Position numbers and translations under genes: made by a program. The notes beneath the pieces were generated by a model. That model was not told the origin of the DNA. It worked only from the letters and a program-made list of their open reading frames with translations, and ran no database searches. 64,000 bases of DNA from Oasisia sp. SBJ-2009. Its lineage: Eukaryota; Annelida; Polychaeta; Sabellida; Siboglinidae. Of this stretch, positions 1,703-53,892 are shown one piece after another. The stretch's first letter is position 1, and each line of letters opens with the position of its first letter. Location of the stretch: the NCBI GenBank assembly GCA_964017155.1, contig OZ024856.1, positions 44,328,878 through 44,392,877 on the forward strand. Direction: 5' to 3'.

Positions 1703-2778
1703 CTTGAAGGCTACTGCTGTCAGCGTACAATCACTTGATGTGTTTACGAGAACGATTCTGCGACTCACTTGGGGGCCGTACGATCCAAAAATAGACGTGT
1801 ATTGTCATCCACTGACCGATGCGGACTGGCTGACCTGGCCTGACGTAAGGTCTACAGAAAGCTCACCATGTGGCGCCACTGTTGTTGTTATAGTTGAGCT
1901 TCGATTATCCCGTCGCCGTGAGATGGCAGCACATTGCCTCTCCTCGTCGTCGTAGCGAGTTGAACTCGTTAGGTGAGCGAGGGTCGAACAACGAGATATA
2001 TCAGTGCAATCTAATGCCATTACCATCTTCGTATGGAATGATATTAGGGGCATAATTCCACATTGCAACATGATTGATATCTGAATCACTATTTGTTTTA
2101 AAATATAATAAAAGTAATGTAAATGTAGATATATATACGCACCAGCGTTAATTATACAATTACCATATTATTTTCATTTTCGTCGCGAATAAATATTTAT
2201 TTTGATTGATTTAAATGATTCGATTTAGCAATATTGTTCAGTTAAAACATGCACAAGTGTAAATTAAATTGTTTTGTCAAGTTCGAACCGGTGTCGTTCC
2301 GATTATAAAAGCGAGCGCAACTAACGAACACGTTTACCAACTGATTCGGGTCCCGGATTTAAAATGTTACATTAAATCTGTAACTCCTCCTTCAAGCAGC
2401 AGCATACTAGTGATATTAATGTACTACATAACATTTCCGTCTTATGTTAAATGTTTGTGGTGTATGCGTGGATTTTCGTCAGTGGGCTGCAAACGATATA
2501 ATTACTCATAAAAAGAGCTGAATGCGGCAGCGAACCCGACACTCAAGCATCCACGAAACTTCTGGCTTGAACTTTGTAACACAATTTGATTTTTGTGGAA
2601 CCGTAAGATATATAATATGTTCCCTGTGATGACTAGTGTTTGCATTAAATCGGAATATGGCACAATAATTTACATGACGCTCGTTCCGACCCAAAAACTA
2701 TCCTTGTAAACATACTCTGAAAACGTAGAAACTGACTTCACGATACCACGTGATCGCCTTCCTAGTGGGCTTCCACAG

Positions 2779-2857
2779 ATCCACGTTAGTCGCTAGAGGC
2801 GCTAATACGCAATTAGACCCTAGTTGCGTATCAGCGCCTCCAGCGACTAACGTGGAT
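2779..2857. repeat. Foldback element, 38-nt arms
   Basis: The arms 2779-2816 and 2820-2857 are reverse complements with three mismatches (core GTCGCT.GAGGCGCT), separated by three bases. A second copy, with its right arm cut short, is at 30283-30340. Confidence 0.85.
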
Positions 2858-3916
2858 TTGTTTGCATGTTTTGCTGAACGCTTGTTTAAATCATCCTTAA
2901 CTAACTATCCAGCGATAGTTTGTAAGTGTGCATGCCGTACGTGTGGTCAATAGACAGTACAGCATGCCGTAGTGTGGTCAATAGATAGAACAGCCAAAAC
3001 AACGCCATCTTCGCACTGAATTTAATCGAACGTCCCGCGACGTTTCATCCACTGTAAAGTACATTATTGTAGACATTATGCTTTCATATTGACGGACATG
3101 TTATACGATATCAATATTTAACTATGTGTGTGAAGACGTAGCAGTCTCGTATGATCCATACGGTGAGCTGTAGATGATTTTAAACATCCTTTCCGTAGAT
3201 GATTTTAAACATCCTTTCTGTCGTCGGGCCACCATCTACGTTCCATCGGTTGTAAATGTTCATTCATGTACATATTATACCTTCACATTGACGGACATGT
3301 CAGACTTTCTCCATAGTTAGCTATGTGTGGGGCTTCGGACTCATCCGAGATGAACAGGTAATTGTAGGATGATTTAATTAAACAAGCGTTCCGCAAAACG
3401 GTGCCGCATTTTACATACGTCAAGAATACGTAAAAGACGGCATAAAGACCCTATTTGTGTCAGAGCGCCCTCTGTCGGATTAGTTATTGTGGTACCTCAT
3501 TAACTTTCAGCTTTCTGCAGGAATCGCTGTGCTGACGGGTTTAAACCCAAATTTATATTACAAATGTATTTTTATTTATTTTTGAATGTTGTCAAATGCT
3601 ACATACATACTTAATCTTTATGTATATATGAAAAACGAATTTTAGGTAAAGCCTTGTTTCTATTACCTTTAATAATTACCTTTAAATGGTGCATTGTGAA
3701 GGGTATCTTAACGTATACCCTGTGAAATAGAGAGGAAACAAATGCACAGCTACAAGGTAGCAACATTTAAATATGTTCATTGCAAGAAATGCATATGAGG
3801 TGACCATACTGGCATATTTTGAGTGAGGTGGCTTAGAAAAACAGCGAGGTGGATATCATATAGCAAGGAAACACTGCAGCAATGATTCAACAAAGTGTTG
3901 AAGAAGGAAGACTAGA

Positions 3917-3919
<3 letters not shown>

Positions 3920-3995
<76 letters not shown>

Positions 3996-4115
3996 CACGT
4001 GAGTGTGAATATATGTGTGTTTGCATAAATGTGTGTGTATATATATATATATGTATGTGTATATGTGTATATATGTGTGTATGTGCGTGCGTCCGTGCGT
4101 GCGTGTGTGTATAGT
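3920..4115. repeat. (GT)n microsatellite with TATG/GTGC extensions
   Basis: About 70 bp of pure GT followed by impure TATG- and GTGC-rich repeats. The His/Thr- or Val/Cys-rich open frames across it are repeat artefacts. Confidence 0.95.
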
Positions 4116-4632
4116 TATAGCTATACAACACTATTACATTAAAACTACCATTGATCATATCACATTTAATGTGATAATATAAACCAACAACACAAATATG
4201 ATAGTTATTAGACATACTGTTGTTTTAATAACTACCTAAATATCACCTACCATAACGCAATTGAAGTTGCGTTCATTAGACTATTATGCAAACTACAGCA
4301 TATATATTGAAACACAGGCCTCAAATATGTTTTATACAATTCATGCAACTATATAACTATTATTACTTTGTATTGTTCTACAATGCAGATTATTCATATT
4401 AGATTAGTCATATTCGATACAATTTATAAACATAATTGCCATAGCTGAAACATTGAACACTGCCTGCTTCTTAACATAGAGCGTATTGTTTGTGCAAGTT
4501 GTAATCGTATTGTGCGCGTTAATTGCAGAATGCGAAATACGAATTACAAATAAAGACCCTCGTATTATTTTACCTGTCACTTGATTATTACTGCAGTCAT
4601 CTGCGAACCGAAACTGATATTGCAGCGTGTCT

Positions 4633-16436
<11,804 letters not shown>

Positions 16437-16806
16437 CTTGAACGATGGTACTGCTGATAGCGTACAATCACTTCTGATGTCGTGTGTACGAGAATGATTC
16501 CCCGCCTCGAATGCTGTCTGATCCACAAATAGACTCTTGCATAATAGACATTCACCTTCACCCACTGACCGAGCCGCGCTAAGTCAACCGGAGAGGCCCA
16601 CCATCTGAGTGCATATAAGTCCGTGTCCACATAATATTATAAGACCGTTGTAGAGGTAGTAGAGATTCGATTATCCCGTCGCCGTGAGATGGCAGCACAT
16701 TGGCGCTCCTCATCGTCGAGGCGAGTTGAACACGTTAGGTGAGCGAATGCCGGATAACGAAATATATCAGTGCAATCTAATGTCATTACCATCTTCGTGC
16801 TTTTTC

Positions 16807-24432: not shown

Positions 24433-27400
24433 AGAACAAGAACAAGAACAAAAAAAGATGTTTATTTTTAACCCCAAAATAAGTACATAAATACACTAGT
24501 CATAAGGTGAAACATAAACAAAACGTCATACATCAGTAATTTAAGACAGTGAAGTGTGGGTCAGTGACTCCTGTTAAGACTGAAAAGTCGCTATCACAGG
24601 AGCCACTCATAGCAATTATACATTTAGTTAACCTCTCAATATACGTATGTATAGTACATTTTTACTTCAATACGATTTTATTATCTCTTAATAGTATATG
24701 TTATCTCTGATGCATGTGTACATGCTTCTCTGTAGTACACGTAAGTAGAAATAATTAAGTAACAATAAAAAAATACATATAACATATCATTGCGTCTATC
24801 CATATTTCTAATGACTTTGTGTATTTAACTGACATATATAACAATCAGATATTGTACATACAGTTTGCTATTTTTGTAAGAGATACATTTTAAAGTAATA
24901 CGCAAACCCACGTAAACTGTGAGTAACAATTTTACCCAAAACTCCTTCTGGAGTATCATTTATAATATGAGGCAAATTGTATTTAAGGCACTTTTTGGCA
25001 AATTCATGTCTTGTCATAGATGTGTGTATATTTGTAGCTTTGCGGGTATCATGACTGTGTAGGTTATATTATAATTGGGGATAATATTCCAATTTAATAA
25101 GTAAACTGGCTCATTACCATGCCTAGATTTATAGAAAAATTTAAGTTCTTGCAGTTTTAATCGATCATCTATTTTCAATATTTGAAGTGTTTTAAATAGG
25201 GGTTCAGTGTGTGAATTGTACCTGTTCAGTGTTATTATTCGAACTGCTTTTTTTTTAATTCTCACTATTCGACTTCCTTTGTATCCCCAAACCGTAATAC
25301 AATAATTAATATGTGATAGGATTAGAGAATTGTATAGAAGTGTTTTTATGTCTAGCGGCAGTATATGCTTTAGTTTGTTTAAAACGCCTGTAGTTTTGGA
25401 ACACTTATTCGCAATTTTATTTACGTGTTTTTTCCATGTAAGATTGGGGTCCAGAGTTAATCCTAGAAAATTAAATTCATCCACTTGTTCGATATTTGTG
25501 TTATCGATTTTAAGAGTAAGAGTTTGCGTCTCTTTTCTAGGTACATGAAAAATCATATATTTAGATTTTTCTTTGTTTAAGGACAATTTATTAATATTTA
25601 GCCATTCTATAACTTTCCCGAGTTCGTAATTTATTACGGATTCTACGCTCTTGTTTTTAAGTTGTGTGCTGTCAGTAAATTGGTTTAATGTACTGGAGAG
25701 TGTTGTATCATCTGCATACATAATGAAGTTAAATATATTACTGAATTGTGAGAAATCATTAATATAAATAGTAAACAATAAAGGTCCTAAAATTGATTTT
25801 TACTGGAAGGGTTTCTGATTGCACTTCATCAATTTCAACATACTGTCGTCGATTGCTTAAATAACTTTCAAATAAAAGTAGAGACGCACCATCCAGTCCG
25901 TAAAACCTTAATTTATGTAGTAAAATGTTATGGTCAATGGTATCAAAGACCTTTGATAAGTCAAGAAATATATTAATTGGCACCTCATTTTTGTCCATGT
26001 GATTTATAATTCTATCTACTAATTCTAGCGCAGCATACTCAGTGCAGTGGTTTAGTCAAAAACCATATTGGTTATCGAAAAATAGTTTAGCTTCATTAAA
26101 ATATGAAGATAACTGGGTAAAGATGATTTTCTCTAGTACCTTTGATATTGTTGGTAATAGAGAGATTGGTCTGTAATTTTTAAATAATGTGGGATCACCC
26201 TTTTTTTAAATTGGAGTTACTTTGGCAATTTTGAGTTTATCTGGGAAAATTCCCGTATTTAGCACTTGATTTATTACCATAGTCAATGATTTTATGATTG
26301 CAGGTTCAATTATTTTTAAGAATTTTGAAGAGATACCATCGAATCCACAACTATGTTTTGTGGGTAAATTGTATATTATTTTCTTTACTGCCTCTTCATC
26401 TACATTATTTATTTGAAAAGATGAGTGTATTTGTCTAGTTAGATAATAACTAAAATATTTGGTTCCTTCATACTTGATATCATTTACAATAGTCTGAGCT
26501 ATATTTGTAAAATAGTTATTAAATGTATCAGCAATTGTTTGTTTATCTGACATTTGATTGCCATTGTCTTCAAAATGAACTGGGAAACTATTTTTAGTAC
26601 GTTTTTTTGACAGACATTCATTTATTGTTTTCCAGGTATTTCGTATATCATTCTTAAAAAGTGAAAAACGGGATCCAAAATAAATTTGCTTAGCCTCCCG
26701 AATGTTTTTCTTTAATATTGTGTTATATGTTTTTAAATTAATTTTAATAGTTTTGTAATTATATGAACTGGGATTTGTTAATTTTAATTGTTTGTACATT
26801 TTGTCTCGATATCTGATTGATGTTAACAGACCATGGGTGATCCAAGTTGATTTATTATGTTTATATCTATTCAATTTTACTAATTTGTTTGGCATATGTA
26901 TAGTTTTAGCACGTGTAATTTCTTTGTATAGTATATCATAATTATAATTTGGGTCAGCAGTTGGATTTTTATTTAGTTTATCATAAATGTTACCTGATTT
27001 TATTTCATTCATAACTCTTATCATTGCGTCCGCGTGTACGGTATTTATTTTTACATATTTAGGAGGGGGATATAATTTTTTAGTATTGTGCATAATCATA
27101 AAATACGGTTGGTGATCAGAAAATCGTTTAGTTAATATCCCTGCGGTATTTTCTAATATTGACTACAAAATAAATTATCTATCAGGGTTCCATTTGTTCT
27201 AGTAAATCTAGTTGGTAGGGTTATTTGAGGATACAGACTATGTGATATTACCGTGTCAAAGAAGCTACTAAACATGTCATTTTCATTTAGTTTAAGTAAG
27301 TTAATATTAAAGTCCCCGGCAATAATGATATCATTATTACAGTTATCCAATCTCGATATAATTGTTGTAAATTCATCTATAAAAACGTTTAAGTCTTCAT

Positions 27401-32370: not shown

Positions 32371-35300
32371 ATGGCTAAGTGGGGAAAGGGAGATCCGCGC
32401 TGGATTGTCGAAGAACGTGCAGACGCTACAAATGTAAATAACTGGCACTGGTGAGTTTGTCATGAAGGACACGTGTGACAACAATAACACACTGCACCGT
32501 GACATGCTGCCCACACACCTAGCGACCATAGCGTCACAAAATTCACGCGCATTATTTGACCTTTTAGTGTTCGTGTACTTGTTGTAGCTTTCAGATACAA
32601 CAGATACAACACATTTCAGTAATTTTGTTATAACTGATATATTCTTGGAGTTGGACAGGCCCTGGTTACTGGTATTTGCGGTTTACCCATTTGCCGTTAG
32701 TCTGACCGAGTCTGTTTCTCTGAGCCTATATTATCCATGACTGATCAACGATGTATCTAACCTCACAGTGGAAATAAAATTTGCTCAACTTGCCCCCATC
32801 TAGTCATAGAAATAGCCACAGCATTAGGCAACATAATATATAGTAAGAGAGGTAAATGTCCCACATAACAAGAAGTCATGATGTTAGAACATTATCTGTT
32901 AGTGTTATTGAGACAGCTCATCACACTATGGCCGTAAAGCCATTTATATGGAATGAACCAAGGAGCAACCTTTGTTAAGGAATTATCTGTGATGTTCTAA
33001 AACATTTCCACTGTGAGAATTGTTCTGTGCCATTTATGAAAAATCAGCCAAACTACCCGGGTATTTAAATTGACAAGGATTCTTCATATCTAGGCATACA
33101 TGTTCATTAGCCAAAGATGCTCCTATGTGTATTTAGTACATGGACGGACTTTGTCCATAGTTGGGAGAAGTCTCCTAGTTGGGAGAAATCTCCCGATCCT
33201 ATAATGTTCTACATGTAGCATTAACCCTAGGCTAGCAGCCATTTAATGTTTACCAATGATGTGTTTAAACATATGTGACGAAATGAGTCGTATGTCAAAA
33301 AATTGAATTAGTCACACCATTGGAAAGAATATATACAGGGGTAGAAATAACTCCAAAATATCTGGCAGTCAGCAGGACTGCCTAGTTGAGAAATCTGGCA
33401 GTCCTGAGAGATATCTGGCTGTCCTAAAAATGGCCCCAATTTTTTTAAGCAAAATAACACGACAAACAATATTTTTAAATCGAACAAATTTAATACAAAA
33501 GGCGAACATCAAACACATTCATACCCCTGCACCAACAAAATATATACACCAACACCAGAAACATAATTATATACACCTACACCAGAAGCATAATTATATA
33601 CACATAAACACCAAAAACATATGTACATCAACAAGCTCGTTGATCTCACTTTCCCAATCTGCCAAGAGCTGTCGCCAGATAACTGTCACCGCTGTCATTC
33701 TCGCTATCACTGCCGTTTTCCTTTCTTTCATCCTCCGAAATTTATTATCACTAGTCATAATACCACAAATATAATATAATAAATTCCCTGCTCATCTCAT
33801 AAAAACATATGTGTTGCTGTTTGGCCCTCATGAATTAAAAAGAAGGCTTGGTTATAGAACAATAAATATTATAATTTTCAGTAATATATTTATTGTGTTC
33901 TAGGTATAGGCCTAACATAGGCCTATTTGTTCACCTTCTGATATGTATCATAGTTTGCAAAGAATCCCTTTCATGAAAGGCATCAGCATCTACATGATAT
34001 TTTATTACACAACTAATATAATCTTTACATGTAAAACTTGAACATGGAATTCATTATTTTATGAGCTGAACTGAGCCTTGGTAACATAGGCACGAATGGA
34101 GATATTTAAATATGGAGTCCATTTAAATAACCATGCTTTCGTCTCTTTCGTCTGTTAATGATGTTTTTCCATTTACATGTCAAACGTACTCAAATAATAA
34201 AGTGCTTAGCAAAAGTACATACTTTTACAAACATGCACATGTAGTGTAGATGTATGGATGGACATTATTTGTAAAGATGTAAACGGATTTCACTTTGTTC
34301 TACAAGACTGGAACGTACACAGTGGGCGATAATACGGTATCGAAGCGGCTTGCGGCGATTCTATAAAGCTGATAAACAATGTCAGCCTTGCCCATGCAAT
34401 GTGTAGGCCTTGTACTTAGATATTTATTAAACTGTTTTTAATGTCCAGTCATCACAGTAAGACGTGATTTAAATAATTCCAATTCAGATCATTGTTCAAA
34501 TCGTTGACCGCCCCGGCGAGCGCCCAGCGGTGTCTGAGCATTAGCTCAGTCTCAGACTCGATTGCAATTAGTTAACTGGCATTGCTATTCATTGTGGTGA
34601 CTCTGAAAAACATTTGAGACAATGCCCAGCCAGAAATAAAACAATTATCCGCACCCAGTAAGCTAAATTTGTTTGTTTTGGGTGGACTGAAAACTGGAAA
34701 AAGCCGGACGCTCCCGCAAATTTGTTCACTTACGTTACGATGAAAGAGATTGGTTCTCCCGCGCGGGAGATCGGGGAAATTTTCTGTAATTGCGCGAGTC
34801 TCCCGCCGAATGCGGGAGACTTAACATGTATGCCATTAGGAGTCATTGCCTTTGTCGAAGATCGATATTGTTAATAATTTAAAAAAAATAATATTCCCGA
34901 ATTTGGCTGGTGTCCGTCGGACTGCCGCTGACGCCATCTTCGACAGTCCGACCGAATTTCTGGCAGTCCTCAGACTGCCGGACACCCGCTATTTCGACCC
35001 CTGATATATATTAAGCTTTCCAGCAGTGTAAACATTATGGACCTATCACGCACAATTATTGGATGCTGAACATGCCTGGGATAGCCAGTCTCAAACGGAG
35101 AAAAACACACTTTTAAGTTCGCGGTCACATAAGCACACAATCAAGGACACCAGTGTTCCAAAATCGGCCATTTTGCTTTTGTTACTCCATGTGATGCTTT
35201 TAAAATAAACTCCCAAGTCATGTTCATCGGCAAAGATGTATCATGCTAACTGTTTACTGAAATGTTTACAGCATAATCCGAGTATTTAGCGATGTTTTCT

Positions 35301-38300
35301 AGCAGTGACCCGATCAATCACGCTTGTTTACAGTTAGCGAGTGCGCACTGCGCTGACAGCTCTAAGCCAATCAGGGACCCGCTATCAGCCCCTCCCATAT
35401 CCAATGACATTTGTTTACAGATAGGCCTCATTAGTACCAAATATGTCTGCCATGCATTGAGGAAGAATGTGACTTGAACAAGTGTGATTAATCGGTTTTA
35501 TTTATACGAATCAGCTGTAAAATGTTACATAGTGTTTCTAAAAAGGCTATAAAATGTACTAAATAATAATATATATGAGAAATAAGCATAGCTAATTGAC
35601 AAACAATATCATCAAAGTATACTTTGGTGACAAATAAAAAAACAAAATCATTGGAAATCATTGTTGCATGTTTTTACGGTGTTTTCTCGAAATCAACCTC
35701 ACTAAAATGACTCACTTCGTTAGAACATTACATATATAGATTTGGCACATTTCAATTTGAGCTACATTCATTACAATTTACAATTGTTATAGTATATATA
35801 TATATATATATTACAATTATAGCTTAAAATTTTGATATATATATAAATTGTTTCAACCAGCAACTGTGTCTAATTATAGGACAGAAAAGAATGCCACACC
35901 ATGGTCCAATGACAAGCTCAAGGAACTACTCGAGGGACTGAAACTTGAAGATGACAAATGTGAGTGTTGTTATGAACTTATAATATTACATCTCTACTCT
36001 ACCGTCTAGTAGTTGGCCAAAAACCTGTTGATGTAGCTCCATAATCTTTATAATATTATTATTGGTCTCTTCAGCAGAAATCCTTGAACAGTGTAGCACT
36101 TTACTGTTTCAAAATCAAAGCATAGCTTTATACAGGGATCCGTCCACCCGTCATGGATGGGTAAAACCTGTTGTGGATGCAGGGTCGGAAATTAAGGACC
36201 GTCCGCTAGTCCGAGACTACCAGATTGTGCCACGGACTAGTAAATATTACAACTTGGTAGTCCGGTGGACTACTGAATTCATCAGAAGTTTTAGTGGCAC
36301 CACCTGGTGTTACAAACGTTGATAATTTTATAATTGAGATACGCCGCCATTTTGCACCAATTTCGCGTAATGTTTCGTAAAAACAGCAACGTGTATTATC
36401 GGCCGGGATCGAAATTGGCACTGACGCGATGACCCGAAGCGTGTTTTAAAGCTGTCGGGCCAGTTCGGGCCACCAGTTTTAAAATTTAATATCAAATGGT
36501 TTCAATCTCCTACTGACCACCGTCGATGTTTCCGTAACCCGATCCATCACAGAAAAATGGAACGACTTTAATAACATGAGTCTATTTATTAACATTCGTT
36601 TTGTTACATTTTATATATAACTTATTACGCAATATGTCTAAAAATGTTGTCGTGTGAACACAACTAATTCCATGTACTGTGGAAATCATATTTTATAAAT
36701 GCTTGCGTGATTGGCAAATTGCGGGAGTCACTCATTATTCACCCAATCAGCAATCTTGTTACACATTGCCGTTGGCTATGGGTGGTAGGCGATGTCGTTG
36801 TTGTCTGCATGATAAAATGCTAGTTCACATTCCATAGTGGAAAGACATCTACGTAATTATACTATGAAACATTTGATAGTGTTGCAAATAGTGCTGGTTC
36901 GATACCAGGTTTTGTTCGATACTGATCGATACCTGAATTTTGTTCGATACTCGATACTTACGTTGTAAGTTTAATATTCACATAGAACACAGTTCCCAGT
37001 AGAAACAGTATGCAACAAAAGTAGTGCTGGTTCGATACCAGAATTCTTCGATACCAATCGATATATTGCTGGTTCGATACCAGAATTCTTCGATATCAAT
37101 CGATACCAGATTTTTATTCGATACTCAAAATTTACCTTGTAAGTGTAATTCAGTACAGTAGAGATCTCCAAAGAAACACACTATTATCCACTTAGACTAA
37201 TGCCACAGAAACACACACAATTTTTCACTTACAAGTAGGGAAATATGTGATAATTTTATAGTCATGCAAACAATGATTAAAATGCAATTTTCATTTTATG
37301 TAAGTAAACAAACAACTGTTTCAATATAATTGATTACTGTTGTAAAACTAAAAGGTAAATGTAATATAAAATTAAAACAATAAAGACAACTGCAATAAAA
37401 TACCTAGTGACAAATAAATTCATCAATTGCACTGAATTATTTTAAATTAATAACAGTACTTCACTCCAGCTGTTTGTAAATACACTATAATATAGCAGCT
37501 TAATTTCAATTCAATGTGTCTCATAAAGTGACCATCAACAAATACAGCTGAAACATAACATACAAATAATATGTTATTATTATATTAAATATAAATACAC
37601 CTATCACTTATAATAGTGCCACTGCCAGCACAGCTGCACACTCACTGTTATAACTGTTTTATAATTAATTGTATCGTAAAGATAATTGTGATTTAACATC
37701 AAAACTGTATAGACGATTACAATAAAATAACACTAATTAATAATAGAAAAAATATTAATAAAAATTACAATTGCACTTCCCAGTTCACACCAATTATTTT
37801 TTACATAAAACTTAAATTACCACGTTATCAAGTACACATAACAAGCCCCATAATGTTTCTGCAACTGTTTTCAAGAACCGGTCAGTTTCTTCCTCTACCT
37901 CTGGCTCTGCCAGTGGTGAATCTGTTTGGCCAGTGCCAGTGACTGGCAGTGTCACAGTGAGAGTGACAGTAGATGCAGTAATCACATCGTCATCGTTAAT
38001 CAGTCACGTCGTGTATGTCACTTCTTGGCGATGTTTGCCGCAGTTTCTTAGCAGATTCGGCAACAGATGGCGATTCGCTTCGACTATAACTAGATGTCCA
38101 TTGCTCGGTCACTGTCGAATATTTCGATAGAATACGTTCTCGAGTCAATGACAATGCCAATGCCAATGGCAAAGCCAAAGCCAAAGGCAAAGGCAAAGGC
38201 AATGCGACGTTGTCCACGACGTCGACGACGCCATACGATGAAAGTTGATCATCACGTTTTGATAGCTTCTTGAATGGTGACATGTTTCGTCAAATTCGAT

Positions 38301-41300
38301 GTATTTCCCCCGCTATCTTTGAGATGCCTCTAGCACAGCGGACACTCTTTGTTGGAAAACTGCCAAATTATTAGCGATGAACGTTGCGACTTGTTGTCGT
38401 TCACCTTGGTTGTGGGCATCGTGTACGGCAAATGGTGGCGCCACCAAACGGAACCCGGATAAACATAACCTCCGCATCGCGCTCGAATAAATATTTATAT
38501 TAATAATATTATTATTAAACTAGTTTCATAAATACTAGTGCGTGCAATAAACACTCTATGCAAATACAGTAGGATGTGTCGTTTTGTACGCGTAACCGTA
38601 AATAAAGTAGGGAGAAAGATGGCATGGTACTGCCACCAAACGAGAGCGTCACGTACGAACCTTGGTTTGGGTAACGAGGCTAAGCGAAGTCTGACCTACG
38701 CTAAGATAGCACACAGAAAACAGTTATTATAGAGACTAATTCTACAATAAAGTTTTAGAAAACAATTCACATTTTATGTTATATTATTTTTTAAACAACC
38801 ACGCCTAAGTCAATTTAGGCTGCGAAGCGCTGTAGTGATAGCTCCCGTAAACAACGTCGTCATCAACAACGACGTTGCGCCTTCGCATTGACTTCGTCGA
38901 ATGGACTCGATGTCGAGTATCGAAATATCGAAGGTATCGAAGGTATCGAAGGTATCGAAGGTATCGAAGGTATCGAAGGTATCGTAGGTATCGAAGGTAT
39001 CGAAGGTATCGATGGTATCGAATAGTGGGCGTTCGATACCAAAAATATCGAAGTATCGCGATACCACTAAATATCGGTATCGAACTTTCGCAAGTATCGC
39101 GATACTTCGATATTTTTGGTATCGAACCAGCACTAGTTGCAAACAACCATTCCTGCAGCGGTAGATTTTGTAAAACAATCTTGGAAGAAAGAGGACTAGT
39201 GTTTTGGACAGCGTTCACACTGTCACCGGCGCACGTGAGCTCTCGGCCTCACACACAGACGCGATGTTTACGTAGACATAGCTAGACATAGGCTAGCTTG
39301 TCATTAGATGGGGCACGGGTTATATGCGTTCTAGTGCTAATTTATCATGGTGTCATGTATGCCTGATTCTGCAGTAATAGTTTTCAGGCACAACCAAAAC
39401 TAAGAAATGTTTTTCATGACAGACAGCTATAGCTTCAAGCCTCAAGCATGTCAAAACAGTCAGTCATGAATTCGACTTCGCCGACTTTGGCTTTGCTTTA
39501 GACTAGTCTCAATGCAGTTATGCAAAACCAACTATTAATTAATATATATTGCCAACGAGCAAATCAATTGTTAATATTAAATATGAAAACACGTTTTTGT
39601 TTTATATTATTTATCAAATTTAAACTGATTTCATTATTTAATATTTCGAAGACACACAACACTGACAGAAGACGTTGACTGTTGTCATTGAGGTTAATAT
39701 TAAATTTCTCATAATATGTACTAATTTTAATCCATGTAAAGTTTATAAATGAATGTGCTAAACTTGTATAGTGTGAACGTTGCCTCAGATTTTATATTAC
39801 CAGACTTACACCACAATTAAAACATTTAATTTAACATCGAGTTCTCTCTTTTTTTTGCAATCTTAATAATGTACATTAAAAATAAACGCATGCAACATAA
39901 GAGCTTCAGAAAGTCTTCATGATGTCACTCCTGTCGAAACTTGGTCTTATAAAGTGATGGGCACCTCGGTAGAAGCATATTTTGTTTACAATATTTGTGC
40001 CAGTAACTTTTTTGGGGGCAGTAACTTTTGAAATATACTGGCCCCCCGGGCCAGTGGATGCAAAAGCTTAATGTCAAGGCCAGTATTGTGTAGACTGGGA
40101 CAACGATGCCAGTTGTGACAAGTACTTGGATGGTGCAGATTGAGAGGTGTATTATCGTTACTACCTGGTATGTTTTTCATAAATAAATTTTGCGTATAAT
40201 TTGGTCATGTTGACTCCGTGTTGATGAATTTGATGGGACTAGTGGATTTGGCTGCGGACTAGTGAACTTTCCTGGCCACTAGTCCGGTGGACTAGTGGCC
40301 AAAAAAGTTAATTTCTGCCCCTGTGGATGGGTAGAAAAAAAACTAGAAATATGTGAGGACGGATACAAAATGGAACAAATAAGTCTTCCCAAACCATAGA
40401 TATTGTCAGTTTTGCCTTAAGAGTGAGTGTAAACAGTGTCAGTAACTTAGTAGTCCATTTCCGGTCATCAGACACATTTAAAAAAAAAATTAACTGGCTT
40501 AACTGTTGACATCCATGTTTTCACCAAAACATGTATGACTGGCAAAAATGTGGTCCCGCATAACGCCCTGAAACAAGGACATGCTGAAGGTTTTTTTAGT
40601 TCATACCCCAGTTTTTTAATATTCTGTTCTCCACCTGTCCCCTAAGTGTTAACCATTATAATTATGAAGTAGTTTAATGTAAGGCAGTCAGAAACATAAA
40701 TGGCAGACAATATCCACTGTGTTACTAATTCCGACAGACAACACATTTTAATAGGAGTGTGTTAATAAGTTTATATTTGTCGGCTACTTCCCAGAGAAAG
40801 TGAGATTGTGTTTGATTGAACAGGTCTGCCAGGGCATAAAGAGCTTTGAGCAGTCCCGAAGTGGGTGCACTAGTGGGTGACGACCCCGGGTATATAAGAA
40901 CTTACCTTTACTTTTTAACTTTGTAATGTGTTGTTAAGATGATGATAAGCATGGTGAAGGCTTACTGCCTATCCGGTTTAGTTACTTTGTCTGTCTAATT
41001 GTGATTTGTTCCTTTTCAGATAAATGTCAGATCAACGAAGTGACGAAAATCGAAGGCGAGGCTAGTGCCAGTAATCGTAAAGCCAAACTAATATTCTTCT
41101 ACGAGTGGGTGATTGCAGCAAAATGGAAAGGTAAAGTTTAACTTCGTGATGGCCCATTTAGCGGGGGTCTATTTTTATGTTTCTGTTAATGTTTGTGTTT
41201 CATGGTTACAACTGTAATTATACAACCGTGATGCTAATGTGTAGGTTCTGTGTTGTTTAAGACTTAGCAAATGCAGCTGTATTTTGAAATAAGAATTTCA

Positions 41301-44300
41301 TGTACTTGCTTTAATGGTGCATTCTATTTGGACGCAGGCAACCTTGCTGGCAGTAGTGAGATGTATGATGGACAATTAGAAATACCGAACCTGAGCGAGG
41401 AAAATGACCCAGAAGACATTGATGTGAGTAGAACATTGTTTTCATTCCTCGTTTATCGAACTAGCTAATTTGTAAATATTTTGCTCCATCTTGGGCACAT
41501 CTAAGACCCATCACAAGAAAACAATACATTTTTTTAATGTCTCATTAGACTATATAGGTTTTACTGGTTTTAGCAGTACTTAGCGTAGATGTGTAGTCAC
41601 CATAGCTTTGGATTCTTGACTAAAAAACCTGGTTCGAATCCTGTGCTGCTGTGTCAAGCCATAGCCAAGTTGTTTCACTCTGCATTGCTCCAATTCACTC
41701 AATATATGGATGAGTACCTGCCTATAGACAATGGTGTATATTGCTGTATGAGTAGTCTTCAGGGATTAATTGCAGCAGGGCTGGATGCTGCTCAAAGACG
41801 TCAAGATGGTGCTACGTTGAACAGATCTGCCGGGGAGTGAGTGTAAAAGACTCCTGGTGATTGTAGTGCACCAATTAAAAACTCATCTTTAGTGTTTTCG
41901 TGTGTGGGTGGGTGGGTGGGTGGGAGTGTCACTGTTATCTTTAGTGTCTGTGTAGATGAATGTCACTCTTATCTTTAGTGTCTGTGAAGGTGAATGTGTT
42001 TGTGTCTCTGTGTAGGTGAATGTCACTGTTATCTTTAGTATTTGTGTGTCTGTGTAGGTGAATGTCACTGTTATCTTTAGTGTTTGTGTGTCTGTGTAGG
42101 TGAATGTCACTGTTATCTATAGTGTGTCTGTGTAGGTGAATGTCACTGTTATCTTTAGTGTATGTGTGTCTGTAGATGAATGCCACTCTTATCTTTAGTG
42201 TCTGTGTAGGTGAATGTCCCTGTTATCTTTAGTGTTTGTGTGTCTGTAGGTGAATGTCACTGTTATCTTTAGTGTATGTGTCTGTGTAGGTGAATGTCAC
42301 TCTTACCTTTAGTGTCTTTGTAGGTGAATGTCACTCTTATCTTTAGTGTTTGTGTGTCTGTAGGCGAATGTCACTTATCTTTAGTGTTTGTGTGTCTGTA
42401 GGTGAATGTCACTTATCTTTAGTGTTTGTGTCTGTAGGTGAATGTCGCTTATCTTCAGTGTTTGTATCTGTAGGTGAATGTCACTTATCTTTAGTGTTTG
42501 TGTCTGTAGGTGAATGTCACTTATCTTTAGTGTTTGTGTGTGTAGGTGAATGTCACTTATCTTTAGTGTTTATGTCTGTAGGTGAATGTCACTTATCTTC
42601 AGTGTTTGTGTCTGTAGGTGAATGTCACTTATCTTTAGTGTTTGTGTCTGTAGGTGAATGTCACTTATCTTCAGTGTTTGTGTCTGTAGGTGAATGTCAC
42701 TTATCTTCAGTGTTTGTGTCTGTAGGTGCATGTCACTTATCTTTAGTGTTTGTGTCTGTAGGTGAATGTCACTTATCTTTAGTGTTCGTGTCTGTAGGTA
42801 AATGTCACTTATCTTTAGTGTTCGTGTCTGTAGGTAAATGTCACTTATCTTCAGTGTTTGTGTCTGTAGGTGAATGTCACTTATCTTCAGTGTTTGTGTC
42901 TGTAGGTGAATGTCACTTATCTTCAGTGTTTGTGTCTGTAGGTGAATGTCACTTATCTTTAGTGTTCGTGTCTGTAGGTGAATGTCACTTATCTTTAGTG
43001 TTCGTGTCTGTAGGTGAATGTCAATTATCTTTAGTGTTTGTGTCTGTAGGTGAATGTCACTTATCTTTAGTGTTCGTGTCTGTAGGTGAATGTCAATTAT
43101 CTTTAGTGTTCGTGTCTGTAGGTGAATGTCAATTATCTTTAGTGTTTGTGTCTGTAGGTGAATGTCAATTATCTTTAGTGTTTGTGTCTGTAGGTGAATG
43201 TCAATTATCTTTAGTGTTCGTGTCTGTAGGTGAATGTCAATTATCTTTAGTGTTTGTGTCTGTAGGTGAATGTCAATTATCTTCAGTGTTCGTGTCTGTA
43301 GGTGAATGTCAATTATCTTCAGTGTTCGTGTCTGTAGGTGAATGTCAATTATCTTTAGTGTTTGTGTCTGTAGGTGAATGTCAATTATCTTTAGTGTTTG
43401 TGTCTGTAGGTGAATGTCAATTATCTTTAGTGTTTGTGTATGTAGGTGAATGTCAATTATCTTTAGTGTTTGTGTCTGTAGGTGAATGTCAATTATCTTT
43501 AGTGTTTGTGTCTGTAGGTGAATGTCAATTATCTTTAGTGTTCGTGTCTGTAGGTGAATGTCAATTATCTTTAGTGTTTGTGTCTGTAGGTGAATGTCAA
43601 TTATCTTCAGTGTTCGTGTCTGTAGGTGAATGTCAATTATCTTCAGTGTTCGTGTCTGTAGGTGAATGTCAATTATCTTTAGTGTTTGTGTCTGTAGGTG
43701 AATGTCAATTATCTTTAGTGTTTGTGTCTGTAGGTGAATGTCAATTATCTTTAGTGTTTGTGTATGTAGGTGAATGTCAATTATCTTTAGTGTTTGTGTC
43801 TGTAGGTGAATGTCAATTATCTTCAGTGTTTGTGTCTGTAGGTGAATGTCAATTATCTTCAGTGTTTGTGTCTGTAGGTGAATGTCAATTATCTTCAGTG
43901 TTTGTGTCTGTAGGTGAATGTCAATTATCTTCAGTGTTTGTGTCTGTAGGTGAATGTCACTTATCTTCAGTGTTTGTGTCTGTAGGTGAATGTCACTTAT
44001 CTTCAGTGTTTGTGTCTGTAGGTGAATGTCACTTATCTTCAGTGTTTGTGTCTGTAGGTGAATGTCACTTATCTTCAGTGTTTGTGTCTGTAGGTGAATG
44101 TCACTTATCTTTAGTGTTCGTGTCTGTAGGTGAATGTCACTTATCTTTAGTGTTCGTGTCTGTAGGTGAATGTCAATTATCTTTAGTGTTTGTGTCTGTA
44201 GGTGAATGTCACTTATCTTTAGTGTTCGTGTCTGTAGGTGAATGTCAATTATCTTTAGTGTTCGTGTCTGTAGGTGAATGTCAATTATCTTTAGTGTTTG

Positions 44301-47300
44301 TGTCTGTAGGTGAATGTCAATTATCTTTAGTGTTTGTGTCTGTAGGTGAATGTCAATTATCTTTAGTGTTCGTGTCTGTAGGTGAATGTCAATTATCTTT
44401 AGTGTTTGTGTCTGTAGGTGAATGTCAATTATCTTCAGTGTTCGTGTCTGTAGGTGAATGTCAATTATCTTCAGTGTTCGTGTCTGTAGGTGAATGTCAA
44501 TTATCTTTAGTGTTTGTGTCTGTAGGTGAATGTCAATTATCTTTAGTGTTTGTGTCTGTAGGTGAATGTCAATTATCTTTAGTGTTTGTGTATGTAGGTG
44601 AATGTCAATTATCTTTAGTGTTTGTGTCTGTAGGTGAATGTCAATTATCTTTAGTGTTTGTGTCTGTAGGTGAATGTCAATTATCTTTAGTGTTCGTGTC
44701 TGTAGGTGAATGTCAATTATCTTTAGTGTTTGTGTCTGTAGGTGAATGTCAATTATCTTCAGTGTTCGTGTCTGTAGGTGAATGTCAATTATCTTCAGTG
44801 TTCGTGTCTGTAGGTGAATGTCAATTATCTTTAGTGTTTGTGTCTGTAGGTGAATGTCAATTATCTTTAGTGTTTGTGTCTGTAGGTGAATGTCAATTAT
44901 CTTTAGTGTTTGTGTATGTAGGTGAATGTCAATTATCTTTAGTGTTTGTGTCTGTAGGTGAATGTCAATTATCTTCAGTGTTTGTGTCTGTAGGTGAATG
45001 TCAATTATCTTCAGTGTTTGTGTCTGTAGGTGAATGTCAATTATCTTCAGTGTTTGTGTCTGTAGGTGAATGTCAATTATCTTCAGTGTTTGTGTCTGTA
45101 GGTGAATGTCACTTATCTTCAGTGTTTGTGTCTGTAGGTGAATGTCACTTATCTTCAGTGTTTGTGTCTGTAGGTGAATGTCACTTATCTTCAGTGTTTG
45201 TGTCTGTAGGTGAATGTCACTTATCTTCAGTGTTTGTGTTTGTAGGTGAATGTCACTTATCTTCAGTGTTTGTGTCTGTAGGTGAATGTCACTTATCTTC
45301 AGTGTTTGTGTCTGTAGGTGCATGTCACTTATCTTTAGTGTTTGTGTCTGTAGGTGAATGTCACTTATCTTTAGTGTTCGTGTCTGTAGGTGAATGTCAC
45401 TTATCTTTAGTGTTCGTGTCTGTAGGTGAATGTCACTTATCTTCAGTGTTTGTGTCTGTAGGTGAATGTCACTTATCTTCAGTGTTTGTGTCTGTAGGTG
45501 AATGTCACTTATCTTCAGTGTTCGTGTCTGTAGGTGAATGTCACTTATCTTTAGAGTTCGTGTCTGTAGGTGAATGTCACTTATCTTTAGTGTTCGTGTC
45601 TGTAGGTGAATGTCACTTATCTTTAGTGTTTGTGTCTGTAGGTGAATGTCAATTATCTTTAGTGTTCGTGTCTGTAGGTGAATGTCAATTATCTTTAGTG
45701 TTCGTGTCTGTAGGTGAATGTCAATTATCTTTAGTGTTTGTGTCTGTAGGTGAATGTCAATTATCTTTAGTGTTTGTGTCTGTAGGTGAATGTCAATTAT
45801 CTTTAGTGTTTGTGTATGTAGGTGAATGTCAATTATCTTCAGTGTTTGTGTCTGTAGGTGAATGTCAATTATCTTCAGTGTTTGTGTCTGTAGGTGAATG
45901 TCAATTATCTTCAGTGTGTGTGTCTGTAGGTGAATGTCACTTATCTTCAGTGTTTGTGTCTGTAGGTGAATGTCAATTATCTTCAGTGTTTGTGTCTGTA
46001 GGTGAATGTCACTTATCTTCAGTGTTTGTGTCTGTAGGTGAATGTCACTTATCTTCAGTGTTTGTGTCTGTAGGTGAATGTCACTGTGACAACAGATGAC
46101 GATGAGGGTCACGCAATAAAGGACTTCCTCCGTTCAACCGGCACAAGGGTCATACGACAGCAGATACAGAAGTATATCGACGATCTCAAAAAAGGTGGGC
46201 CATCGTATTCACTCTACTAAACATAATATCCTGACTGACATATGCCCCCATCTCAGTAAAAAAAAGGGACAGGCAAGTTCTTATATAGCGCAGTATCCAG
46301 TCCTCAGGACCGCTCAAAGCGCTTTACACTTTACTTCCCTGACAGACCTGTTCACTCAGACACCATCTCGGCTTCTCTGGGAAGCATCCAGCCATGTGCT
46401 ACAATTAATGCGCGAAGGCTGCTCGTACACATATCCACCACTGTCTCAGCACTGGCCAACATTGATCTACAACAAGAACTTGTCATTATAGTCATCATTT
46501 GTTGTAATTAATTCCCTGCCAGCCAGTGACTAACAACATCAGAAAGTTGTACTTACATCTGCAGCATTTGCATTAAAAATCCACCATCCTGTAATCATGT
46601 AGCATTCTATGCAGGGTTCGCACAGGGCGTCGAATGTTCTTGAATTTGATTTTTTCATTCGAGTACCCTCGAATGTTCTTGAATTTGATTTCAGTAGATG
46701 GCGCCATCTGATATAGGCTAATGCTACACCGTTTTCTATTGGTTCGTTCAAGAGCGAATGACCAATTAGGGCCGTGTTTGCTTTTTATTAACTACACGAC
46801 GCCATTTGCATTTTACAAATAGATTCTAGATTTTTAATTCGCGCGTGTTGGAAGTTACTTGGAAGTTGGAACGTTTTAAATCATGCCTCGCCAACATGGA
46901 AATTGCAAGTTTCGGGATTTGTGGCTGGTTGATACCAAAGGTAAAGATTTGATAGTTAAAGATCGCGCTGATGACAAGGTTGCAGTATGCAATGTTTGCA
47001 AGAAACGAACAAGACGAACATCAACATGGGCACTTATGCAGAATTCGGACCCACCTCAGTTTTGCCATTATAACTGTATGTTTGCCAACATTTGATCTTG
47101 TTAATTCATTCATTTAACATCATCTTGCGCATATTTATGTTTTTAAACAGCGCGTCTTAGCAGACTTTTGCGGTCGAAAAGACAGCGCGGTCGGCATAAA
47201 CAAACTGTTTATCGCTCAGTCTATGACTATGTGCATGGCGTCGTGACGCATGCACCGCTGCACTTGCGACTGGCACAAATCGGAGCGCTATTTGGGTCTC

Positions 47301-50300
47301 AAAATGCAATATTTATGAAACATAAATATGCCTGGGAATCCTGATTGATCATGTTTAGGATGAGAGTTATCTAACATAGGCAAATAAACAGTTATAATGA
47401 CAAGTGGTGCAGAAGGAACTGAACACTGAAGGGAGTGTGAAGTGTCTGTTGGGACTTGGAAGTCACACAGTGCGACCAGTAATTATGTGGACAGCACCCG
47501 TTATTTTTCTGTTTTCTTTAAAAAAACTGCTGTTTGTACCTGACATGTTTGAATTTTTTATTGTATTGAGAATGTTCTTGAAAATGTTCTTGAAAAAGTC
47601 CTATTTTCCCCCGCAAATGTTCTTGAATGTTCTTGAATTTGATTACACACTTTCTGTATGAACCCTGATTCTATGTCAAATCAATCAAGAATTTATTAAT
47701 TTGACACGGAATACCCAAATGTGAATATGTCATTTCCACATGTATGTCACTCCAACGGAAGTAAACTGAAATATTGCACAATGCCATTGGCATCATGCTT
47801 GTACATAAGTGTGCAACATAAGTGTACGATGTAAATGTACGATGTAAGTTTATGACATAAATGTATGACATAAGTGTACGATATAAGTAGCAAAGTTGGT
47901 GTGTCTCCACCTGGTGAGTGACACTTAATTAAACCAGTAAAGGGTAAGTACACCAGTGCTACGATGAGGTGCCACTATTTAGTCGTTAAAGAAACGGATA
48001 TTCAAGAATTTTTCTTTTGCCATAACTCTTACACATACATACTGTGTGCTTAGTAGAAGAAATATAGTAATTTGGTCCAGCAAAAATCCCAGAAAACATT
48101 TGTTTGGTTAGTAAAGTATTAATTCTTACCTTCTCACCCAGTGTTGTGTTAACAATAATAATAACACTTTCTTTGACATCAATTTACCTCCTCATGTATC
48201 GTTTGCTACAGAATTCAGTCAAGGCATGATTCTACCAACGCAGAAATCAAACACTCACAATGTAGTTACACCACCAAAGAATATAGATGGCTTTAAGGTA
48301 AGGCAATAATGTTTTAACTGTTTCTAGTTTAAAAAAATGTATATTCCAATAGTTGTGCCCTTAGCATACATTACTGTTTTTATTACGTGCCTACCATCAT
48401 CTTTGGGTGGAATAACAATTAAAAAACAGTCATGCAGATAATGGGATATATTAACTATCAATTTTCAGTAAAATTGTATCATGTCTGATTTGGATTCCAA
48501 TGATACTGGATTATTGAGGTCAGGATTATTAATGCTGTTTATATCATTGATGATGTACGTTACAAAAATGTGCTTTTTTAATACAAAACTGACATTGCCC
48601 TGAAATAACGTGCATGTTTATTGCTGTGTTATAAGCAAAATGAGAATGGACTGGAGTACTAGATAGCAGTCAGTGTCTGTTCGAAATGTGTTCATTTGAC
48701 AGTTGTTTATCTTTTCAGACAACAGTTATTTCAAACCCAGCAGCAAACAACAGCGCACAAGTGGGACAGAAAATCAAGTGCAAGAAGTTATCAAAGACAG
48801 AAGTGTTCAAATGTCAGGGCGTTGACTTATATCGGGCCCTGACAAACAAAGACGTAAGTCTAGTGGTGTTCAAGCGTGTATTACGTCCATGTGACACTTT
48901 TGATATATCTTCATTTATGTACACTGTAGTATAAGTGGTGTATTTTTATGAGGTGTTTGCACTGGGGAAAATTGAGGGTAAGGTGGTATAGGCAAGTGGT
49001 GAAGGTGCAAAGCGGATCTAGGGGGGTCTGGGGGCATGCTCCCCCAGAAACCGAGAATTCTTAAGTATATTTTAACCTTTCCCTTTGAATATTACCTGTT
49101 GGATGGCACATAGGCCACATGTGATGGCACATGAGGCCACGTGTGATGGCACATGAGGCCGCCTGTGATGGCACATGAGGCCACGTGTGATGGCACATGA
49201 GGCCGCCTGTGATGGCACATAGGCCACGTGTGATGGCACATGAGGCCGCCTGTGATGGCACATGAGGCCACGTGTGATGGCACATAAGGCCACGTGTGAT
49301 GGCACATGAGGCCACGTGTGATGGCACATAAGGCCACGTGTGACAGCACAAGAGGCCACATGTGATGGCACATGAGGCTGCCTGTGATGGCACATGAGGC
49401 CACGTTTGATGACACATGAGGCCACGTGTGATGGCACATGAGGCCACATGTGATGGCACATGAGGCCACGTGTGATGGCACATGAGGCCACGTGTGATGG
49501 CACATGAGGCCACGTGTGATGGCACACGAGGCCACGTGTGACGGCACAAGAGGCCACGTGTGACGGCACATGAGGCCACGTGTGAAGGCACACGAGGCCA
49601 CGTGTGACGGCACACGAGGCCACGTGTGGCGGCACACGAGGCCACGTGTGACGGCACACGAGGCCACGTGTGACGGCACACGAGGCCACGTGTGACGGCA
49701 CATGAGGCCACGTGTGAAGGTCTCAACTGTCTTCTGTCTCCAGATGTTGCAAGCGTTCACAAGGAGTGCTGTGTCAGCGGACGCGCAGAAAGGAGGGAAG
49801 TTTCAGCTGTTTGACGGCAATATAACTGGCGAATATCTGCAGCTGGTACGTCTCGCGCTCTCCGTCTGTCCATTTTGCATTTTCCGTAGTCATTTTGTCT
49901 GCGTAGCAAAACACTATTTGAAATGTGCATAATAGTTAAATGCATGAACCTTTGGTAAGGTCTGTGTAGTGTGCTAAAGGCAGCGTACTGTCCGAGTAAT
50001 ATAGATTGCCATTGAAATATTACTAATCTCAGCAGATATAAACTGTATCATAAACCAGTTCACAAAGTAGTGTTAAAAACTTGAGGACTGTCATTTAGCA
50101 GTGTTACTGAATGTCTCAAATAATTTAATTGTTGGAATTTTTTAAATGGCATGAAAAAGCCCGGAATTCTAAGTTTTCGAAAATGTCAGACCATACACTG
50201 AAATACTTCTAACCTGTGAAAACCTTGAATAGTGACCCTCTCAGTTTCCACACAATGCCCCTATAGGGACAGATTTTTTAAATACAACACTAATGTAATG

Positions 50301-53300: not shown

Positions 53301-53892
53301 GAACGTAGAAATGTCTTGGAATTTTGTTGTTACTTGGGTGTTTGAAACACCCGAATAACAAAAGAAATGCAAGATATTTCCACGTTCTCTGGGCATCCAT
53401 TAAAAATGCAAAAACATCCGAGTAAAACAAAATCCAAGACATTTCTACTTTCTCTAGGCGTCCGTTAAAAAACGCAAAAAAAAAAACACCCAAGTAACAA
53501 CATTCCAAGACATTTCCACGTTCTCTCGTCGTCCGTTAAAAGCGCTATGCCAGCGTTTGAATAAAAAAAAATTTCAAGACATTTCCACGTCTCTGGGCGT
53601 CCTTTAAAAAATGCTACACCAACATTTGAGCGTGACAAAACTAAGTGCCGTTGTGTTTGTGTCTCAGGAGCAAAACAAGCGGATAGAGATGAAGTGGCGC
53701 TTCAAGACGTGGCCCGCAGAACACTACTCAAATGTCGTGTTAGAACTGTCCGAGAAAGAGGACAGGACAGAACTGTCTGTGAGGCAAACCGGCATCCCCG
53801 AGTCTGACTACGACCGCACCGTGCAGGGCTGGAACCAGTACTACTGGGAGAGCATCAAGGTGACGTTTGGGTTCGGAGCCCACATCTATTGA
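32371..53892 (+). CDS. AHSA1: Activator of Hsp90 ATPase (Aha1 family), complete 9-exon gene
   Basis: Exons: 32371-32450, 35880-35959, 41020-41130, 41338-41423, 46074-46194, 48212-48297, 48719-48853, 49744-49845, 53668-53892. They sum to 1026 nt, 341 aa plus TGA (human AHSA1: 338), all phases consistent. Aha1 binds the Hsp90 middle domain and stimulates its ATPase in the cytosol. Visible: the N-terminal extension (residues 1-20) typical of animal AHSA1, the NxNNWHW motif at 21-27 (last Trp codon split by intron 1), RKAKLIFFYEW at 73-83 (the RKxK Hsp90 contact), then the C-terminal START-like domain from about 205 (TRSAVSADAQKGGKF, MKWRFKTWP, QGWNQYYWESIKVTFGFG). Start codon context is strong (ACGATGG). 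A heat-shock element lies upstream. Introns are full of transposons and minisatellites. It is convergent with USP34, the position held in human by AHSA2P, so AHSA1 versus AHSA2 naming is arbitrary here. Confidence 0.96.
32451..35879. other. AHSA intron 1
   Basis: 3.4 kb; about half is the hAT-like element at 33336-35003. Short repeated GGGAGAA.TCTCC motifs occur at 33165-33205, outside the element, and a related GC-rich stretch at 34740-34820 lies inside it. No other gene seen. Confidence 0.7.
33336..35003. mobile_element. hAT-like non-autonomous DNA transposon
   Basis: Terminal inverted repeats CAGGGGTAGAAATA (left) and the complement of CAGGGGTCGAAATA (right), followed by related subterminal sequence (CTGGCAGTC... 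at both ends). Flanks are AATATATA and ATATATAT, so a 7-bp ATATATA duplication is possible but unreliable in AT-rich sequence. No transposase reading frame. Confidence 0.75.
38155..38202. repeat. 6-bp imperfect repeat (AATGCC/AAAGCC/AAAGGC)
   Basis: About eight units inside the inner hAT element. Confidence 0.85.
38927..39020. repeat. 9-bp tandem array (ATCGAAGGT)n in the inner hAT
   Basis: About ten copies next to the right terminal repeat; the unit contains GGTATCGAA, the core of the terminal inverted repeat. Confidence 0.95.
40797..40906 (-). repeat. Dispersed short repeat, copy 1
   Basis: In reverse complement it matches 46272-46388: TTCTTATATA..., GGACTGCTCAAAGC.CTTTA, GGCAGACCTGTTCA, CTCTGGGAAG. 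Looks like a short interspersed family; a partial third copy (TTTGTAGAGCGCCGTATCTC) is at 50328-50350. Confidence 0.7.
41926..46085. repeat. 36-bp minisatellite spanning the intron 4/exon 5 splice acceptor of AHSA
   Basis: Unit TTATCTTTAGTGTTTGTGTC + TGTAG|GTGAATGTCAC: 25 bases of intron end plus the first 11 bases of exon 5 (exon 5 starts at 46074). About 104 regular 36-bp copies from about 42343, preceded by longer, more diverged units. Variants (CACTT/CAATT, CTTTAG/CTTCAG, TTTGTG/TTCGTG, TGTCTG/TGTATG) mark sub-families. The array fills about 90% of intron 4. As 36 is divisible by 3 there are open frames of about 1200 codons on both strands; these are artefacts. Confidence 0.97.
46272..46388 (+). 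repeat. Dispersed short repeat, copy 2
   Basis: AAGTTCTTATATAGCGCAGT...CGCTCAAAGCGCTTTACAC...; the reverse-complement relative is at 40797-40906. Confidence 0.7.
46612..47667 (+). mobile_element. hAT element with BED-like zinc-finger exon
   Basis: Inverted ends CAGGGTTCGCACAG and complement of CAGGGTTCATACAG, with an exact 8-bp duplication ATTCTATG at 46604-46611 and 47668-47675. An open frame at 46883-47095 encodes GNCKFRDLWLVDTKGKD...AVCNVCKKRTRR, the pattern of the N-terminal zinc-finger region found before hAT transposases. The catalytic part is missing (1056 bp in all), so it is a deletion derivative. Subterminal GAATGTTCTTGAATTTGATT repeats occur on both sides. Confidence 0.9.
49102..49720. 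repeat. 22-bp minisatellite in AHSA intron 7
   Basis: About 28 copies of GATGGCACATGAGGCCACGT + GT, ending 23 nt before the exon 8 acceptor. Most copies contain the palindrome CACGTG. The unit has no stop in several minus frames, giving spurious open frames of about 220 codons. Confidence 0.96.
50535..53015. mobile_element. DNA transposon with TTAA duplication (piggyBac/Kolobok-like), degenerate
   Basis: TTAA + GGCAAGACACGGCAGCT at the left and the complement of GGCAAGACACTGCAGCT + TTAA at the right, 2.5 kb apart. TTAA target duplication is the mark of piggyBac and Kolobok families. Several minus-strand frames (50664-50945, 50952-51200, 51873-52082, 52107-52298) look like remnants of one broken protein, but I cannot assign a transposase. 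Confidence 0.8.
53280..53625. repeat. About 80-bp tandem repeat with one inverted copy
   Basis: Direct units start CAAGACATTTC.ACGTTCTCT then GGGCGTCCGTTAAAAA; the first unit (53286-53345) is in reverse orientation, so the first two can pair. The array ends about 45 nt before exon 9. Confidence 0.75.

Follow-up and report, generated by a model that had tools for sequence, protein, structure and literature searches.

How the spliceosome settles on one acceptor when more than one hundred near-copies of it lie directly upstream is the question raised by a stretch of 64,000 nucleotides from the siboglinid annelid Oasisia sp. SBJ-2009 (assembly GCA_964017155.1, contig OZ024856.1, positions 44,328,878–44,392,877 of the forward strand). 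This whole stretch is referred to as the window, and positions are counted from its first base. It carries a gene of the AHSA1 type, AHSA, which encodes an Hsp90 helper, and intron 4 of this gene contains a mirage, namely, a tandem minisatellite within a gene whose unit spans both sides of an exon–intron boundary. As judged from the sequence, the cells likely use only the last acceptor, at 46074. This last copy is probably chosen as the only one with exon-like sequence and a strong donor downstream, i.e., by exon definition.

The AHSA gene and the array in intron 4

The gene (32371–53892, plus strand) was delimited from the exon model, the domain, and the homologues. Its nine exons (32371–32450, 35880–35959, 41020–41130, 41338–41423, 46074–46194, 48212–48297, 48719–48853, 49744–49845, and 53668–53892, all on the plus strand) together form a single open frame of 341 codons. 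Exon 4 ends at the donor GAT|GTGAGT, and exon 5 (121 nt, predicted start 46074) ends at AAG|GTGGGC. The AHSA identity named in the original prediction was confirmed, as a Pfam Aha1_N match (PF09229, E 1e-29) was found on a 106-residue part of the product, together with full-length alignment to AHSA1 proteins. The closest relative was a protein of Ridgeia piscesae (94% across all 341 amino acids), for which PF09229 and PF08327 are given. The second relative (89%, full length) lay on a contig of 1157 bp, which we take from its size to be a transcript, and a Branchiostoma lanceolatum protein matched at 52%. Since the nine places matched by the AHSA protein in its own genome (764,102,534 bases, 33 contigs) were its own nine exons, AHSA appears to be a single-copy gene.

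The start of exon 5 had been placed at 46074, and the boundary was found there. In the alignment with 11 other animals, the residues VNVTVTT at the start of exon 5 were identical in the two closest, while the rest showed VNV, VSV, INV, and similar residues. The orthologues, including the one on the transcript-like contig, carried the residues expected from the 41423/46074 join, and this predicted junction is supported by them. An alternative start at the in-frame AG preceding GGTCACGCA was rejected because it loses VNVTVTTDDDE, which is present in both closest orthologues. Moreover, the position of intron 4 looks old, since two frames from other contigs (P0020 and P0024) leave the alignment directly past the same residue, with codons compatible with a donor.

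The mirage minisatellite was delimited by Tandem Repeats Finder (TRF), boundary counting, and exon-match runs to 41925–46083 on the plus strand. TRF reported a single array at 42011–46083 (period 36, 112.4 copies, 95% match), and a diverged 5' start extended it from 41925. Intron 4, at present 4650 nt long, would shrink to 532 nt if the array were removed. About 104 near-copies had been predicted ahead of the true acceptor; direct counting raised this number, giving 114 boundaries from 41956 to 46074, that is, 113 decoys (41956–46038) and the predicted true acceptor. The unit, mostly 36 bp, consists of 24–26 intron bases and 10–12 exon bases. Accordingly, the predicted unit length of 36 bp stood, being exact in 103 of the 113 spacings, with the other ten (34, 38, 40, 42, or 60) belonging to the 5'-most units. 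The predicted 11 exon bases were only typical, as the run of identity to exon 5 varied from 0 to 14 bases: 14 in 5 decoys, 12 in 40, 10 in 59, 9 in 2, and 0–3 in 7. Thus, 10–14 exon bases were present in 104 of the 113 decoys, with 12 in the last decoy unit, and the match at a lag of 36 ran across the splice site and stopped past 12 bases of exon 5. Sharing of 10 bases in register by more than 100 copies is not chance, the expectation for a single copy being 4^-10.

The direction of copying was indicated by the 5' end of the array. The oldest-looking units (41956–42401, plus strand), recognized by their irregular spacing of 34–60 bp and their exon-match runs, include all five decoys sharing 14 exon bases (42016, 42058, 42100, 42136, and 42250). 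As orthologues carry the same or similar residues at the start of exon 5, the edge of this exon is most likely the source of the copied bases, in line with the original prediction that the array was copied from its own exon boundary.

With regard to growth, 29 unit types were distinguished in the array. Positions 42837–44087 equal 43989–45239 over 1251 bp with zero mismatches (the block duplication at 42837–45239, plus strand), the shift being 1152 bp or 32 units, and a 9-unit repeat was also visible. The mismatch-free shift hints at a recent length change and reflects either recent block growth or an assembly repeat. A 151-base probe spanning the boundary matched the genome at 105 places, each of them within the AHSA array, in a search that scores only the best candidates and passes over very common words. 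A 20-base stretch of the unit had no exact match in the viral_contigs or genome_contigs collections.

Two side observations concern the same gene. Intron 7 holds a 22-bp minisatellite of 28 copies (49102–49717), which stops approximately 26 nt short of exon 8 without entering it. A protein covering AHSA exons 1–3 and 92% like that of the window (P0026) is recorded as Bacillus thuringiensis, its contig measuring 265 bp, which is probably animal contamination.

Arrays at other exons of the genome

Exon loci of the same genome were surveyed through Pfam families, using 100 loci: 30 of the 93 matches to cytochrome P450, 50 of the 139 to kinases, and 20 of the 78 to myosins. Sampling was not random but took loci with the top scores or at points further down the list, and paralogues among them are not independent. 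An array was counted when it had a period of at least 10, at least 2.5 copies, and an overlap of at least 5 bases with the domain match, a rule that misses exon edges beyond that match. By this rule, none of the 30 P450, 2 of the 50 kinase, and 2 of the 20 myosin loci were recorded, and one of the latter (L082) was then dropped because its array stops before the exon, leaving 3 in 100. As a positive control, AHSA exon 5 was recovered among 8 AHSA loci. Stricter exact-match scans returned only AHSA and a PAK kinase exon among loci L009–L076 and nothing among the 20 myosin loci; thus, the myosin VI-like case described below rests on the looser rule.

The PAK exon mirage (L053:973–1514; contig C1, plus strand, exon match 67737778–67738257; PDB PAK1, E 1.5e-69) has 10 decoys spaced by 50 or 51 bp and once by 58 bp, with the boundary CAG|TGCGTCGGGCAACGTGTG. 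The last five decoys hold 18 exon bases and the first five hold 2–3, CTAAT lies 19–20 nt upstream in 9 of the 10, and a stop follows past 9 codons in nine of them and past 25 in one. In the PASK-like kinase exon mirage (L103:478–789; contig C2, minus strand; PDB PAS kinase, E 4.6e-27), 53-bp units with 98% match share 23–24 exon bases and reach stops past 42–66 codons; 5 decoys were counted in the fetched stretch, the start of which falls inside the array. The myosin VI-like exon array (L096/L099, reverse complement 540–1385 of L099; contig C8) is a probable mirage. Its exon was identified by a match to PDB myosin VI (E 2.2e-41) that is gapless across two joined exons, and its 20-bp units (TRF 42.2 copies, 80% match) extend 10 bases into the exon, to which the decoys are identical for at most 5 bases up to the first mismatch. 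The frames of the 20 exon-nearest decoys stay open for 54–224 codons ahead of a stop.

All four arrays, including that of AHSA, sit at acceptors. Early stops are no property of mirages, as they hold in 10 of 10 PAK decoys and fail in the myosin VI-like array. Three of the myosin stretches (L077, L078, and L099) were fetched for other reasons and stand outside the survey count. Among these, L077 (C12:1090900–1094400) carries a 31-bp minisatellite of 24.7 copies that stops just short of a myosin exon without entering it, and L078 (C5:17714800–17715700) carries two nearly identical myosin exon copies approximately 0.5 kb apart, perhaps mutually exclusive exons.

Selection of the last acceptor

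The local 3' signal cannot decide among the AHSA acceptors, because 30 of the 113 decoys match the true site letter for letter over −20 to +3 (28 over −23 to +6, and 19 over −25 to +11). Two other candidate discriminators were rejected. Loss of the branch site was considered, as YTNAY lies at −23 of the true site; too many decoys (46 of 113) retain one at −30 to −16, and its loss was spread via block duplication. Masking of the decoys by RNA structure was also considered, and the last 265 nt folded no better than shuffled sequences (z −0.90, 32 of 200 at least as well).

The sequence downstream of the acceptor was more informative. Donor strength was estimated as duplex energy with the 5' end of U1. 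Downstream of the true acceptor lie exon-like sequence and a donor of −8.8 kcal/mol, compared with −6.8 kcal/mol for the donor-like site of the unit. The T fraction was 0.18 in exon 5 and 0.45 in the array, and 11 purine-rich hexamers were counted in exon 5, while the next 121 nt downstream of the decoys held none in 107 of 110 tested and two in the other 3. The question of how the last copy is picked, left open in the original prediction, thus has a plausible answer in exon definition. In the proposed course, the exon–intron boundary would have served as the seed from which the array grew by tandem and block duplication, most recently through a single step of 32 units. Many decoys may be bound by U2AF and U2, and productive pairing would be fixed across exon 5. 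A transcript with exon 4 joined to a decoy would meet a stop within 25 codons and would probably undergo decay. A dedicated function is not expected, and the array may be a tolerated by-product of minisatellite growth atop a splice site. Between long introns, splice-site choice across the exon gains weight (PMC9225289), and introns 4 and 5 (4650 and 2017 nt) provide such a setting, which counts for exon definition. Similarly, when a globin 3' site was duplicated with 14–205 nt of exon past the upstream copy, splicing was exclusively distal (PMC5389562).

Several points weigh against this explanation. The overall preference for upstream 3' sites persists under exon definition and is merely reduced (PMC9225289). 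Splicing is inhibited when two 3' sites are occupied at the same time, and constructs with duplicated sites are spliced very inefficiently (PMC5389562); as a result, 113 decoys might be costly, plausibly at the expense of AHSA expression. Scores of −8.9, −5.2, −6.8, −5.2, −8.8, −10.0, −5.4, and −4.6 kcal/mol were obtained for the actual donors of exons 1–8, so that unit donors outpair those of exons 2, 4, 7, and 8 with U1, and pseudo-exons spanning at least two units might likewise be defined. Counting purine-rich hexamers is a crude, self-chosen measure. Finally, AG|GT is present at 111 of the 114 boundaries, a donor-like face of the unit that the original prediction missed, so that removal of units by splicing within the array has to be taken seriously as a rival.

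Under this rival, the boundaries would be dual-specific, and blocks of units would be excised as small introns, each leaving the same seam, until few decoys are left and exon 4 joins exon 5. The dual-specific core is present in the sequence, with the use of one site as both donor and acceptor being putative. The unit donor outscores that of exon 4 (−6.8 versus −5.2 kcal/mol), only 71 of 4000 GTs outside the array in the window reach −6.8 kcal/mol with at least 6 paired positions, and a human UBC tandem array of such sites is spliced by whole units (PMC10809524). Pairing of the units with each other is plausible. However, the seam formed by joining exon 4 to a unit, GAT|GTGAAT, was the weakest site scored; at −1.7 kcal/mol by the energy estimate, no usable donor of the kind expected of a recursive splice site is rebuilt there, and a stepwise chain from exon 4 is unlikely. 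Moreover, the true boundary reads AG|TG in PAK, AG|TT in the PASK-like gene, and AG|TA in the myosin VI-like gene, and such trimming is not a general solution. Taken as the route to the mature AHSA junction, it appears unlikely.

The array might instead be under selection, its length setting the share of poison joins and thereby tuning AHSA mRNA. In this regard, the original prediction that decoys always give an early stop held for all 113 unit boundaries, where a stop follows within 25 codons, and AHSA appears to be a single-copy gene. The array holds 228 AGs in total; 212 of them share the phase of the true acceptor, and for 226, reading in phase 0 meets a stop within 25 codons. The prediction failed for the remaining two, at 42347 and 45557, which are not unit boundaries and open 1250 and 180 codons, respectively, up to a stop at 46097 within exon 5. 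An in-frame stop was also present in 870 of 876 pseudo-exons of 1–8 units. PAK decoys poison as well, but the long open reads of the 20 exon-nearest myosin VI-like decoys show that poison is no rule, and recent block growth fits drift; selected control was thus judged highly improbable. It is also very unlikely that the assembly inflated the copy number and the real array is shorter. The 1251 bp free of mismatches at the 1152-bp shift would fit such an error, but the window lies within a 58-Mb contig of a 764-Mb assembly in 33 contigs, the remaining array varies from unit to unit, and approximately 81 decoys would still be left after removal of one block.

A comparison of the four arrays favors exon definition. 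They share a real exon after the last copy and differ in three other features: only AHSA has AG|GT at its true boundary, early stops are not general, and the unit length is a multiple of three in some arrays and not in others (36 and mostly 50–51, compared with 53 and 20). Since these features differ among the arrays, exon definition would be the best common account, with self-trimming as a possible extra in AHSA.

Surroundings, meaning, and relation to known systems

Elsewhere in the window, the minus strand carries cytochrome P450 exons of a cluster (1328–16583); the genome gave 93 P450 matches, many of them on contig C3 around 44.1–44.35 Mb, and the one named match was to Lamellibrachia satsuma (73%). 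Together with the AHSA identities to Ridgeia piscesae (94%) and Branchiostoma lanceolatum (52%), this match led to the rejection of an amphioxus origin of the DNA, considered initially because amphioxus is known for mirages. The minus strand also carries, at 6216–7946 and 25014–25799, a Mutator-like transposase split over two adjoining frames and a fragment of a reverse transcriptase.

Choice between acceptors with identical signals is usually studied using two-copy constructs, whereas AHSA offers 113 natural copies in a single-copy gene. At this gene, where 30 decoys are identical to the true site over −20 to +3, proximity, exon definition, and self-trimming can be tested against each other, as their predictions differ. 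The two additional mirages and the probable one, from a small survey, suggest that acceptor arrays recur in an annelid genome, and such arrays may feed new introns, poison isoforms, and errors in gene annotation. A wider view seems quite improbable: acceptor mirages would be genome-wide in the tubeworm lineage, hypervariable and affecting a few percent of coding exons and thousands of acceptors, while the AHSA train would be trimmed via AG|GT, and its length, changing by dozens of units between individuals or cells, would set the amount of productive co-chaperone mRNA.

The consensus of a recursive splice site is a 3' site directly abutting a 5'-site-like sequence. Recursive sites (zero-length exons) resemble the AHSA units in this order of signals, but the donor rebuilt on joining exon 4 is weak here (−1.7 kcal/mol). 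Constructs with a duplicated 3' splice site are reportedly to be credited to Reed and Maniatis in 1986. Like AHSA, such constructs place identical acceptors in cis with little exon past the upstream ones; however, they contain one upstream copy, whereas AHSA is natural and contains 113 (PMC5389562). The AG|GT core has been described for dual-specific sites, and in human UBC, as in AHSA, it is regularly spaced at unit edges (PMC10809524). The UBC units are coding and in frame, whereas the AHSA units carry stops and their donor role is predicted only. In the earthworm, metallothionein genes have intronic minisatellites and fourth-exon duplications that are missing from the transcript (PMC12783039), a case that, as far as excerpts of that paper describe it, is near to AHSA but not the same.

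The closest systems are the mirages of amphioxus, where minisatellites across exon–intron edges were described in Adh3, globins (BflGb6 and BflGb9), troponin C, and PGBD5, with length instability and splicing said to be undisturbed (PMC3087553, PMC3902484). Normal mRNA is still made despite them (PMC3087553). As in AHSA, tandem units span the boundary, and real acceptors or donors are copied into the intron (PMC3087553, PMC3902484). The globin and PGBD5 mirages described in excerpts of these papers have 2–7 units, compared with 113 copies in AHSA. AHSA belongs to a different phylum and is not named among the amphioxus mirage genes in the excerpts of the two papers. In the literature searched, which did not cover the founding Adh paper, no report of the pattern outside lancelets was found. 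From its sequence, the AHSA array would thus be of the mirage kind already named, here in an annelid, unusually long and apparently recurrent.

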